A DNA stretch of 64,000 nucleotides from Asterella californica (lineage: Eukaryota > Streptophyta > Marchantiopsida > Marchantiales > Aytoniaceae), in the NCBI GenBank assembly GCA_036924285.1, contig JAYKYS010000005.1:6634001-6698000 (forward strand). The letters run 5' to 3'. This document shows, in pieces, positions 14,198-39,547 of this stretch. Under the pieces are notes generated by a model, which saw only the letters and a program-made list of their open reading frames with translations, made no database searches and had not been told where the DNA came from. Positions within the stretch are counted from its first letter, which is position 1. The number at the start of each line of letters is the position of its first letter. Made by a program: the position numbers and the translations under genes.

Positions 14198-14304
14198 TGT
14201 CATGCGCATACACATCGCTACACAACATACATCGCTGTCAGATATACACCACACATACACATAACACATGGACGATGTCATACACATACACAAGTGTACC
14301 ACAA
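14198..14304 (-). repeat. Element D terminal repeat 'a', outer copy
   Basis: About 107 bp, CA/TG-rich, reading TGTGGTACAC...ATGACA on the minus strand. It is near-identical to 14602-14708. The two copies flank the 293-bp block 'b'. It forms the outermost 3' end of D. Confidence 0.8.
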
Positions 14305-14306
14305 TC

Positions 14307-14599
14307 AATCTGCATTGAGAAATTACCATCTCCAACACTACAACACTGATTACTCACAAATGGTCAAGCCAAACCCACTCTAAACGCGAAGAGAATCCGG
14401 GTTACACTCAACTAGACTATCCACCATAGCCTGGAGCTTGAAGGCTCAACTCGAAGAACTAAGGCCTCCAAGCCCTACCTGCGAAGTTTACCCCTAGTGG
14501 GCTCTCCCACCAACTCGCCCTAACGGCACTAACGGCCTTACCGGGATGCGCCACTTCGCACTCGGTCAACCTAGCCGAGGTGCCCGAACTGACGTGACA
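14307..14599 (-). repeat. Element D terminal repeat 'b', 3' copy
   Basis: 293 bp that match 39255-39547 with about six substitutions and no length change. Its minus-strand start is TGTCACGTCAG. It is the only part shared by the two ends of D, so it is the LTR core; the sequences inside it differ between ends. Confidence 0.85.
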
Positions 14600-14601
14600 G
14601 C

Positions 14602-14708
14602 TGTCGTGCGCATACACATCGCTACACAACATACATCGCTGTCAGAGATACACCACACATACACATAACACATGGACGATGTCATACACATACACAAGTG
14701 TACCACAA
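14602..14708 (-). repeat. Element D terminal repeat 'a', inner copy, next to polypurine tract
   Basis: Near-identical to 14198-14304. On the minus strand it begins TGTGG two bases after a G-rich polypurine tract (about 14711-14722), where an LTR is expected to start, and ends ACGACA. Confidence 0.75.
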
Positions 14709-14710
14709 TC

Positions 14711-14722
14711 GCCCCCCTAACT
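14711..14722 (-). other. Element D polypurine tract
   Basis: The minus strand reads a run of six G in a purine-rich context just before the terminal repeat, the place where plus-strand DNA synthesis starts in LTR elements. Confidence 0.55.
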
Positions 14723-36103: not shown

Positions 36104-36254
36104 CCTCCTATCCTCCCATGATCCCAACCGTCTAGAAATCCATCATCCCAGGTCCGCAACATCCTCCCGAACAACCAGACCCATCTTCATCCTCGTTCAT
36201 GATTGTTGATCTCTTCTGCTCAGTTCTAACACACAAATATCTCCACCCCGGACC

Positions 36255-36272
36255 TTCACGTCGAGTTCACCA
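36255..36272 (-). other. Element H primer-binding site
   Basis: The minus strand reads TGGTGAACTCGACGTGAA four bases after the 5' LTR, identical to element A. Confidence 0.75.
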
Positions 36273-36276
36273 CCGA

Positions 36277-38404
36277 TGTCGCGTCGGACGTTTTGCGTGA
36301 AGGATGTCCAGGAAAACGCGAGGTTCCTGGCTGTGGAGATGTTGTGTGCTAAAACAGAGACAAGACAGAGAAAAACAACCACGAAAACGAACACTGCGAT
36401 ATATACACTCCAAAATGTATGTACACTGCCGTTTCTTTCTCCTAACAGTAAAGAACTGATAATCAGACCTGAGCGGTCCGTAACCTACTTCAGAAGTCCT
36501 AAAACAAACCCCTGAATCACAACCCTAGCTCGAAATCGCCGAAGCGTAGCTCAAAGCAAGAGAAACTTCTCTTTGCTAACAACCAGAGCCACAACAATAT
36601 CAAAAGATCCAAACCCAAGTCCAAACCACATCCACGCACTAGCTCTTGGCTAAAGCTAGCTACCACAAGCCGTATACAACCAATTAAGTCCCTAACGAAC
36701 TCAAAAAGACGAAATCCGTAGCAAAGGAACCGAAAAAGACCTATCTGAGAACTTTCTCCTTTCTCCAAACGATCTTCAAATGTCGATAGGGTCTCCTTCC
36801 CTGACTCCTTTCGCTCAAGCAACCTTCAGATCCGACTCCCGATAGTCGAGATATCGCCGATTTTCGGTCGCAGGTGACCGAACTTCCAGAAGCTCCTCCC
36901 TGCGGCTTAAAACCGTTCGCACCGCACAAACGGATCGTCTAAACTGATATCCGTCCTCGCTAGTAGGTAGATCTGGCTACCCTGAACCCAACAAGACTCC
37001 AAACAAGCCGTTTGGAGTTCCTCTTGCAAAACCACTCGAGAAATTTGGTCGCAGATTGCAAAAAACTGACGTAAATCGGCTCCCTGCGGCTCAAATTCGC
37101 TCACCACACCCAAACCAACAATCCAATTCACTTACAGTCTTCTCTTATGCGTACATGAGGACTCCTTGATCGCGTAGGCACCAAGAACGAAGAGCTTGGT
37201 TCACCGATCGCGAAGAACAGCCCAACCTCAGATCGCAGGTGAACGAAAATCTGATGTAAGCGCTTCCCTGCGAGCCAATTTCACTCAGAACTTCCAAACC
37301 GCCCGATGAAAACTGGTATCGTCTTCAATTTCCTGTAGAACTCGGTGTTCTGATCCCGTTGGATCCAAGGACAGCAAGTTTGGACTCCGGAACGGCCCGA
37401 ACGGTCCAACTCTCTTTCACAGATAACTGAAAACCTCAAATCTCCTTCCTGCGTCTCAATTTCCCTCAGTACACACTCCCCGATCCGTCTCTTCCCAAAC
37501 CGTTTGAACCAGTGCGTAGTCTGCACAGATCTGAACCCAACGACGCCTTGCGCGCTTGCATTGGACTCCTAAATCTCCCGAACCGTCCGTTCCCAAACCG
37601 TTTGAACCAGTGCGTAGCCTGCACAGATCTGAACCCAACGACGCCTTGCACGCTTGCATTGGACTCCTAAATCTCCCGAACCGTTCGTTGACAGGTCGCA
37701 GGCGCAAGCTAGCCCCTTAAGCACCCCCCTTGCAACAGTCTCTGTACGTACAGTTCTCTCCTCAATTCTGAATAATAAGAAGCAGGCCCCTTGCGTCTTT
37801 GATATAACGCCTGAAGCCCTGAATACCCAGTCAGCAAGTAACTAGGGACCTAGCTTGATTTTACCTTCTTTCGAATCGCATAACTTCTTCCCTGGATGTC
37901 CAAACGAAGTAAACAAGATGCCCATGGAAAGCTGACAACGAGCTCTATCCATCTATGCGATAAAAGTGAAGATCCGAAGTTGCGCCAAAAACTCGTAAGC
38001 TGGGGTCTAGCTTGTTTTCTCCATCTTTCGAGTCCTGTAACTTCTTCACTATACGTCCAAACGAAGTAGACAAAGTGCCTATGGAAAGCTGACAAGGAGC
38101 TCTACCCATCTATGTGATGAAAATGAAGATCCGAAATGGTGCCAAAAACCCGTAAGCTGGGGCCTAGCTTGTTTTCCTCATCTTTCGAGTCCTGTAACTT
38201 CTCCACTAGGCGTCCAAACGAAGTAGACAAAGTGCTTATGGAAAGCTGACAAGGAGCTCTACCCATCTGTGCGATGGAAATGGAGATCTGAAATTGTGCC
38301 AAAAACTCGTAAGCTAGGGCCTAGCTTGTCTTACCCATAAGTGTCTTTGGAGCGACAAAAGTCAAAATTTGATTTTCATGTAGGAGCCGGTCCACGACAC
38401 GACA
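36277..38404 (-). repeat. Element H 5' LTR
   Basis: 2128 bp. It is longer than its partner because a 98-bp segment is duplicated in tandem (37494-37591 and 37592-37689). The 157-bp array is at 37849-38319. Confidence 0.92.
37494..37689. repeat. 98-bp tandem duplication private to element H 5' LTR
   Basis: Two near-identical 98-bp units, present once in the other LTR (around 33015-33112), so the duplication arose after insertion or in the reverse-transcribed copy. Confidence 0.85.
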
Positions 38405-39254
38405 CCGCTCTCACGCCTCCGCACTCACGCACCTCTGCTCCTCCAAGCCTCGAAGCCTCGAAGCCTCGAAGCCTCTAAACGCCTCCTAACACGCACTCCA
38501 CACCTCGACACTTCCGCTCCGCTCCGCTCCGCTCCGCTTGAAGTAGAGTACAACGGGCACAACACACCAAAAGAGACTCGGCTCCACCTCGAATTGCAGA
38601 AGATTGCACCAAAAGAGGCTCCAGAACAGCAAAAACAGCTTGCGGGTGCACACGGGTGACCAAAATCTGACGTAAAACAGCAAGAACACCCAAATCCAAC
38701 CCGAACACCACCACAACAGATTCGCGAATGCACAAGACACACTTCGCGAATGCACACACACACAACAAAACTCCTAAACTCGAGTTTCCACACGAAATTG
38801 CACCAAAATCTGACGTAACTAGCCTTTTTGCACTTGCGGGTGTTACGGCAGTGAACTTCGACATGCCATAACTTCTTCAATCCTTGGCCAAACTCCACGA
38901 AACTTAGTGCACTAGAATCGTCTCTCCAATGCGCTTCCAAAGAGCCCACTCCGGCCCGACATTGACAAGTACTCCGTCTGTCACGCCCAAACGCACAATC
39001 CGGCTCCACAAGACACTTCAAGAACATTCCGCAAAATTTCTGCAGCGCTTCCGCATGATAGAAATCTCCAGTCGACCCCAACAACAGCAAATCGATCTGC
39101 GACCAGCAATGTAGCATGCGTCCACACACCTCGATCACAGCTCCAACAATCAACCACGAACGACAACGCCCGAAGATACCAGCAGACGATTTCAGATTTC
39201 AGATCAGCAAGCTCTTACTGAACTCCGCCTCGACCTGCACTCAGTTCTTCGAGT
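38405..39254 (-). other. Element D 5' terminal region, outer part
   Basis: Non-coding, LTR-like. It begins with repeated CCTCGAAG units (about 38453-38477) and CTCCG units (about 38514-38540). No coding support: cysteine-rich open frames here are by-products of base composition. Confidence 0.5.
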
Positions 39255-39547
39255 AATCTGCATTGAGAAATTACCATCTCCAGCACTACAACACTGATTA
39301 CTCACAAATGGTCAAGCCAAACCCACTCTAAACGCGAAGAGAATCCGGGTTACACTCAACTAGACTATCCACCATAGCCTGGAGCTTGAAGGCTCAACTC
39401 GAAGAACTAAGGCCTCCAAGCCCTACCTGCGAAGTTTACCCCTAGTGGGCTCTCCCACCAACTCGCGCTAACAGCACTAACGGCCTTATCGAGATGCGTC
39501 ACTTCGCACTCGGTCAACCTAGCCGAGGTGCCCGAACTGACGTGACA
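39255..39547 (-). repeat. Element D terminal repeat 'b', 5' copy
   Basis: 293 bp matching 14307-14599 with about six substitutions; the outer end TGACA is followed by the AGTG duplication. The flanking 'a' repeat of the 3' end is missing here. Confidence 0.85.

Follow-up and report, generated by a model that had tools for sequence, protein, structure and literature searches.

What does a plant retrotransposon do with a DNA methyltransferase of its own? Host plants methylate transposons and silence them by DNA methylation, so a mobile element that keeps a DNA methyltransferase (DNMT) under selection is a paradox. The question is raised by an element found in 64,000 nucleotides of Asterella californica DNA (contig JAYKYS010000005.1, positions 6,634,001 to 6,698,000); this whole stretch is called the window below, and positions are counted from its first letter. 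The element (14198-39547, minus strand) is a Ty3-like retroelement with a C5 DNMT between protease and reverse transcriptase (RT). It is a decayed and twice-invaded copy of a high-copy, recently active family with recently inserted members, a conserved DNMT, and split direct repeats at its ends. The class of DNMT-bearing retrotransposons is already known; prior reports come from one charophyte and from dinoflagellates (PMC5890265).

The coding domains were assigned on the minus strand. The decayed gag part of open reading frame (ORF) 1 (29280-30871) is spread over two frames (ORFs 30194-30871 and 29280-30257) and contains two CCHC zinc knuckles and a capsid-like region, the latter called by likeness to relatives and without a Pfam match; at an E value of 0.1, Pfam gave no gag family in the two gag ORFs and no family in the protease region. 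The protease part (27990-28799) was recognised by the DSGA motif in LLDSGAQP. It is followed by the C5 DNMT domain (27012-27977), in which motifs I to X stand in linear order with one internal stop; the evidence for it comes from PF00145, the span of a family hidden Markov model, the ranking of Protein Data Bank (PDB) matches and the fold of the relative P0122. The PF00145 search that the preliminary description of the locus had proposed gave a match at 27429-27989 (minus strand, E 2.9e-8). Past the ORF1 stop, ORF2 begins with the first part of the RT, which includes YIDD and reaches up to the insertion of a nested element, A (26016-26765; PF00078; RVT_1 match 25899-26498, minus strand, E 7.3e-24). 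The remainder of the RT lies beyond element A (16840-17253) and is followed by RNase H (16183-16839; PF17917; RT_RNaseH, E 2.9e-26), a DDE-type integrase (15286-16053; PF00665; rve, E 1.1e-14) and, at the ORF2 C terminus, a C4HC3 PHD finger (14887-15021; PF00628, E 9.5e-11) with one stop inside, read as X. RT, RNase H and integrase are thus arranged in Gypsy order, and no recombinase family was among the Pfam matches. These matches together with the DSGA motif bear out the Ty3-like architecture first proposed from the letters alone, PHD finger included. The frame also stays in register once element A is removed, as had been stated: element A plus one target duplication measures 8765 bp, a length of 2 mod 3 that agrees with the frame shift between the two sides, and the left side (14900-17254) has 6 stops in the coding frame versus 48 and 51 in the other two.

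Does the DNMT belong to the element, or is it a neighbouring gene? The genome (516.7 Mb, 773 contigs) was searched with PF00145, which gave 1250 first-look candidates. A score was computed for 123 matches, and 16 of these belong to open frames 1367-1381 amino acids (aa) long. Twenty copies were fetched, all picked for long frames (the 16 and four of 1016-1281 aa), and the element-level counts below cover these 20; the 103 remaining scored matches include host genes. In 15 of the 20 copies the DNMT lies between both element ends, in the other five one end was not seen, and a DNMT outside the ends, the arrangement that would have spoken against its being part of the element, was found in none. 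A neighbouring gene is ruled out by these copies. The DNMT of the window shares 91-97% identity with its counterparts in the 16 copies from which the domain could be extracted, and in all five copies checked ORF1 starts with the capsid-like region and two CCHC knuckles in one open frame.

The ends of the element are split direct repeats and not LTRs (long terminal repeats). The termini (TGTCA/GACA, with TGTCA/TGACA delimiting the whole element) and a short target duplication, here CACT in the element sense at both the 3′ end (14194-14197) and the 5′ end (39548-39551), are as in LTR retrotransposons. A complete LTR is not present at each end: the 5′ end consists of repeat A1 only (39255-39547, 293 bp, minus strand like all parts of the element, 98% identical to A2), which joins the internal region directly, without B. 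At the other end, the polypurine tract GTTAGGGGGGC (14711-14721) stands immediately upstream of repeat B1 (14602-14710, 109 bp, 98% identical to B2), followed by a GC spacer (14600-14601), repeat A2 (14307-14599) and repeat B2 (14198-14306), which forms the 3′ terminus; the order is A1, internal region, polypurine tract, B1, GC, A2, B2. Among the 20 copies, A1 was found in 19, B near A1 in none and B-A-B at the 3′ end in 16; of the four copies without B-A-B, three have nothing there and one has B1 only. The junction CGACA-GC-TGTCA is identical in all 16 copies that have it, with the same polypurine tract or a near variant 5′ of B1; in some copies A2 runs directly into B2, whereas in others additional bases part the two. 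An exact 4-bp target duplication was found in 11 of the 14 copies with both flanks read, and the remaining three differ by one base. That the arrangement arose by rearrangement of an ordinary LTR pair in a single copy might be suggested by the two nested elements of the window, A and B, each of which is flanked by an ordinary LTR pair, but the A1 ... B1-GC-A2-B2 order and the target duplications recur in the 15 of 20 copies with both ends seen; this explanation, refuted by the family copies, is now scarcely credible.

Repeat identity and substitution rates were used to date the family and to measure constraint. A1 and A2 are 100% identical in 6 of the 15 measured copies (one of the six over 278 bp only), compared with 98% in the window. 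Pairwise ratios of nonsynonymous to synonymous substitutions (dN/dS, NG86) are 0.175 for the DNMT (the 16 of 20 copies with both end motifs in one open frame, 15 of them long and one from the shorter group), 0.097 for the RT (14 copies), 0.20 for the integrase end with the PHD finger (14 copies) and 0.33 for the protease with spacer (15 copies), all from copies chosen for long frames, a choice that can bias the DNMT ratio downward. Because dN/dS is low and A1/A2 repeats are identical, the DNMT is kept under constraint and the family has moved recently: the DNMT is under purifying selection and the family recently mobile. The alternative, that the DNMT is a functionless passenger captured from the host, fits the dead copy in the window and the 107 of 123 scored matches in shorter open frames, a count that tells against a maintained enzyme. 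It is very improbable in view of the dN/dS value, even from copies picked for long open frames, of the catalytic PCQ, ENV and HRxR columns, invariant in 12 metagenomic relatives that are 42-74% identical to the first, and of a DNMT domain that bryophyte and green-algal elements have in common as one clade.

How the DNMT is made depends on the boundary between the two ORFs. Across the two stretches examined, the window copy has 11 in-frame stops; nine are internal, and two, TAG 26772-26774 and TAG 14881-14883, coincide with the family ends of ORF1 and ORF2. ORF1 comprises gag, protease and, as its C-terminal part, the DNMT, and it closes with TAG-CAGTCA both in the window (26766-26774, minus strand) and in 19 of the 20 family copies; the twentieth has an earlier stop, and its boundary site went unread. 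Past the TAG, and without a change of frame, comes ORF2 with RT, RNase H, integrase and PHD finger. An open ORF2 of 1038-1041 aa is present in 11 of the 20 copies, and ten of these belong to the group of 16 that has the longest ORF1; the PHD finger terminates it in all 11, and all three integrase motif strings are present in ten. The stop context conforms to UAG-CARYYA, the type I readthrough motif of tobamoviruses (PMC5382211). This context occurs at 14 of the 6097 stop triplets on both strands of the window and, among the 11 in-frame stops of the copy, only at 26772-26774. An ORF1-type end was also found 77-99 aa past motif X (98 in the window) in 8 of 28 relatives (P0060, P0119, P0122, P0123, P0125, P0126, P0131 and P0140), of which P0131 is labelled partial; the ends of metagenome proteins may be contig edges. 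Decay as the origin of the stop is ruled out by these ends and by TAG-CAGTCA in the family copies.

We read TAG 26772-26774 as the native end of ORF1, so that the DNMT would be made with Gag; leakiness of the stop is inferred. Because this TAG is read as the native end, the DNMT is assigned to the Gag-protease ORF and not to an uninterrupted pol. The proposal in the preliminary description that the DNMT is part of the polyprotein thus stands as regards the element and the shared frame, and has to be amended in that the DNMT closes ORF1 before a conserved TAG. Several observations weigh against our reading of the boundary. Nine of the 28 relatives, of a more distant metagenome type, stop 117-148 aa past motif X; another stops at 73, and in three the end comes early (27-47). 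Four gene models (P0127, P0130, P0133 and P0146) continue into the RT; the rest are Closterium and two green-algal types. The RNA 3′ of the TAG folds not notably better than shuffles (z -1.49).

From this layout a mechanism can be proposed. If leaky, the UAG-CARYYA boundary would be a concrete dosage mechanism, with Gag-protease-DNMT as the majority product and the full polyprotein as the minority product. The DNMT would enter every virus-like particle at capsid dosage, be freed by the protease, and methylate the element's own complementary DNA (cDNA) before or during integration, so that new copies would arrive already marked; such self-methylation may serve to hide from host silencing or to exploit it, as had been suggested from the first. 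The split repeats point to reverse transcription by way of a joined B-A junction (CGACA-GC-TGTCA), at which the integrase would cut to give CA ends and 4-bp duplications. The PHD finger is nearest to PHD fingers that read histone H3 tails, and it would tether the integrase to chromatin, as chromodomains do in chromoviruses. Taken together (a DNMT family with split repeats, a leaky stop, Gag-protease-DNMT dosage, cDNA self-methylation, a PHD tether and a joined B-A junction), this is the best explanation that we can offer, and we give it an even chance of being right as a whole. Methylation of cDNA was also proposed in the paper on the DNMTs of Symbiodinium elements and of the Gypsy element of Klebsormidium nitens (PMC5890265).

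Two other roles have to be weighed against cDNA methylation. The DNMT might act on host chromatin, with the PHD finger reading H3 and the neighbourhood of an insertion being methylated after integration, so that the copy is silenced and the cost to the host softened. The integrase of this lineage ends in a fused PHD finger akin to H3-tail readers, which fits such a role, as do the K. nitens copies, which are methylated in CHG and CHH (PMC5890265). In the present element, however, the DNMT is on ORF1, apart from the integrase ORF, so that the two need not travel together. Methylation of transposons is, moreover, already done by host plants. We consider a chromatin role unlikely, though it is the stronger of the two rivals. 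Alternatively, the DNMT might methylate RNA, either the genomic RNA or a primer transfer RNA (tRNA), and so help packaging or priming, as DNMT2 acts on tRNA. Synthesis together with the nucleocapsid zinc knuckles would suit this, and no obvious TGG-initiated primer site was seen by eye after A1, but both the sequence and the fold of the catalytic domain place it closest to DNMT3A/B, with DNMT2 at 12 bits versus 46 among the best 60 of 87 PDB matches, which makes an RNA role improbable. Methylation of the cDNA itself has points against it as well. Of the transitions that distinguish A1 from A2, 5 of 15 fall at CpG, which is no clear sign of CpG deamination; capsid dosage is no rule for the whole lineage, because the green-algal DNMT is on the RT side; the K. 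nitens DNMT was without de novo activity in yeast, a result that its authors termed inconclusive, and elements without a DNMT also transpose in the same genomes (both PMC5890265, the latter in its discussion).

Where did the DNMT come from? The preliminary description had called it DNMT3-like. Solved DNMT3 structures are indeed the closest by sequence, among the best 60 of 87 PDB matches, and the fold of P0122 is closest to DNMT3 structures among the best 50 entries of a VIA-align comparison, a listing in which DNMT1, CMT and DRM do not appear and which excludes none of them. Motifs I to X are unrearranged, unlike those of DRM, and the DRM genes of the same genome are rearranged. In a 39-row tree, however, the retroelement DNMTs form one clade of their own (98/98) beside a DNMT3 and DRM clade (97/92), and in this small tree they are not nested among DNMT3s. 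The tree was built from 28 hand-picked relatives, Closterium, one family copy, five phage-type outgroup rows and only four cellular rows (human DNMT3A and, from the host, one DNMT3 and two DRMs); three of the cellular rows carried a warning for unusual composition. The host genome carries DRM genes, which mark it as a streptophyte, and a DNMT3-like gene; the nearest kin of the element would point to a bryophyte host. The latter (G000:C1:40145511-40145831; L029, L080) has at least two exons and is the best PF00145 match in the genome; two near-identical DRM-type genes lie about 30 kb apart at ~5.10 and 5.13 Mb of G000:C526 (L078, L079), one of them perhaps a partial duplicate.

Protein searches recovered relatives from Marchantia polymorpha, M. 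paleacea, Calypogeia fissa, Sphagnum species and Closterium, differently arranged ones from Haematococcus lacustris, Monoraphidium neglectum and an entry under the label Chrzof1, which we take to be Chromochloris zofingiensis, and many metagenome proteins. Among the 288 proteins collected, which include the window's own P0121 and whose counts are shaped by search length limits, the order RT, RNase H, DNMT, integrase, PHD was found in 72, with many partial forms, protease-DNMT in 36 and DNMT alone, mostly as short pieces, in 122. The green-algal relatives have one long ORF, with the DNMT placed after RNase H and before the integrase. Several Marchantia models fuse ORF1 and RT or miss parts, which is tentatively read as annotation introns. 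Scans of viral contigs with P0002 and P0123 gave no match, and a scan with an alignment as the query gave 28 phage-type C5 methyltransferase loci of 27-47% identity, among which no retroelement was recognised. Three single proteins of the green-algal type may be mentioned. The DNMT of P0163 has WECQ for WPCQ at motif IV, so the activity of some relatives may differ; P0207 (Monoraphidium) has a Tudor-like PF21743 match below the cut-off at residues 2352-2407, after the PHD finger, possibly a second chromatin reader; and the polyprotein P0198 is filed under a metagenome-assembled genome of a Minisyncoccia bacterium, probably as a mis-binned eukaryotic contig.

The two placements of the DNMT could reflect two separate captures of related cellular enzymes. 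The placements do differ, and the two groups separate in the DNMT trees with the single exception of P0269 (Haematococcus), whose model has a weak protease match and a DNMT without RT and which we tentatively take to be a gene-model effect. One of these trees has 80 rows, drawn from the 160 of 288 proteins that span 85% or more of the DNMT model, with a few named ones and seven phage-type outgroups. Not included in it were seven proteins of the Marchantia type, the other RT-side proteins apart from 22 chosen at random, and, P0168 and P0169 excepted, the partial proteins with DNMT and integrase. Against two captures, both placement groups and Closterium fall in the 98/98 clade of the 39-row tree, which holds neither the host DNMT3, the two host DRMs nor human DNMT3A. 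The RT and integrase also form one lineage, at 34-51% identity to the window in six proteins versus 24% for element A. Over the whole RT, RNase H, integrase and PHD block the window is 34-52% identical to P0171, P0203, P0207, P0248, P0249 and P0169 and 33-39% identical to P0168; the RT, RNase H and integrase of element A are 24-27% identical to those of the outer element. Separate captures are therefore judged rather unlikely.

One lineage with a displaced DNMT appears, from these alignments, to be the simplest reading. A broader account can be built on it: a single ancient green-lineage retrotransposon family may have captured a DNMT once and retained it, in chlorophytes, streptophyte algae and bryophytes alike, as a private clade distinct from both DNMT3 and DRM. 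The enzyme would later have moved within the polyprotein, and in bryophytes a readthrough stop would have brought it to capsid dosage in a virion-like methylation machine. Replication would be of a hybrid kind, in which a DDE integrase bearing a histone-reading PHD finger cuts a circle junction formed by DIRS-type split repeats. This account is put forward tentatively, with a chance of being correct clearly short of even. The kin in M. polymorpha, a genetic model, and the copies with identical repeats in A. californica make the role of the DNMT directly testable.

The outer element has received two later insertions and itself interrupted an older sequence. Nested element A (17255-26015, plus strand), a younger Ty3-like element within the RT, has LTRs that are 99.85% identical over 1373 bp, a target duplication CCGC and long open frames inside; its first ORF has a weak DUF4100 match below the cut-off. 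Nested element B (31812-38404, minus strand, assigned from a gag-like ORF at 34508-36127) lies in the 5′ leader and has terminal repeats of ~98% identity. The outer element splits an older LTR-like sequence, the parts of which (13411-14198 and 39548-39790) jointly match 46646-47639. Elsewhere in the window, pieces of another Ty3-type element (57569-62273, minus strand) gave matches to Retrotrans_gag, RVT_1 and Integrase_H2C2 and a weak match to a Tf2-1-like SH3 domain. An open frame at 1418-2356 (plus strand) matches ribosomal protein L4/L1 (PF00573, E 6.1e-54); in the ten ORFs scanned, no other Pfam match was clearly unrelated to transposons. Rfam at gathering thresholds gave no match in the window, and ARAGORN found no tRNA.

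How does the element compare with known systems? The preliminary description had rightly pointed to precedents for DNMTs in retrotransposons of dinoflagellates and charophytes. The nearest is KnitGypsy-Dnmt3 of K. nitens (de Mendoza et al. 2018, PMC5890265), which resembles the present element in Ty3/Gypsy coding capacity with a Dnmt3-related DNMT inside, in being intronless, in purifying selection (Ka/Ks < 0.2) and, by the legend of Fig. 4 of that paper, in DIRS-type repeats. It differs in its host group and in the DNMT, which is in the Pol ORF there and closes the Gag-protease ORF here; the words 'PHD' and 'protease' are absent from the main text on it. No Klebsormidium protein was named among the matches listed. 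DNMT3 has also been reported in retrotransposons of streptophytes and dinoflagellates, and DRM to be restricted to streptophytes (PMC12344493); a passage of one review describes DNA methylase-encoding transposons as absent from land plants such as tracheophytes (PMC6338049). Among the titles and abstract openings listed in a literature search, with subscription journals outside its scope, none dealt with bryophyte DNMT elements, an ORF1 readthrough layout or the PHD finger. As far as these searches show, the following are new: the bryophyte kin, with recently moved copies in the same genome; a Gag-protease-DNMT ORF with a readthrough-type stop; the PHD finger on the integrase; split repeats over many copies with 4-bp duplications; and one DNMT clade in two polyprotein positions.

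The green-algal elements of H. lacustris, M. neglectum and Chrzof1 share the RT, integrase and PHD lineage and the DNMT clade, and differ in carrying the DNMT between RNase H and integrase in a single long ORF. Chromoviruses, as described, are Ty3/Gypsy elements with a chromodomain after the integrase, where the present element has a PHD finger instead. We know of no DNMT in chromoviruses. SymbioDIRS-Dnmt3 and SymbioLINE-Dnmt, from DIRS and LINE (long interspersed nuclear element) retrotransposons of Symbiodinium, likewise carry DNMTs, and SymbioDIRS has two coexisting domain orders (PMC5890265); the former is described with a tyrosine recombinase and the latter as a LINE, whereas the element described here has a DDE integrase and target duplications. 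The arrangement of A1 at the 5′ end and B1-A2-B2 at the 3′ end is also that of PAT, Ngaro and VIPER (PMC6681497, PMC4157794), but these are described with a tyrosine recombinase in place of the DDE integrase and 4-bp duplications found here. Split repeats with a Gypsy integrase were already hinted at in the Klebsormidium element (PMC5890265, legend of Fig. 4), and split repeats together with a DDE integrase unite traits that are usually assigned to different retrotransposon orders.

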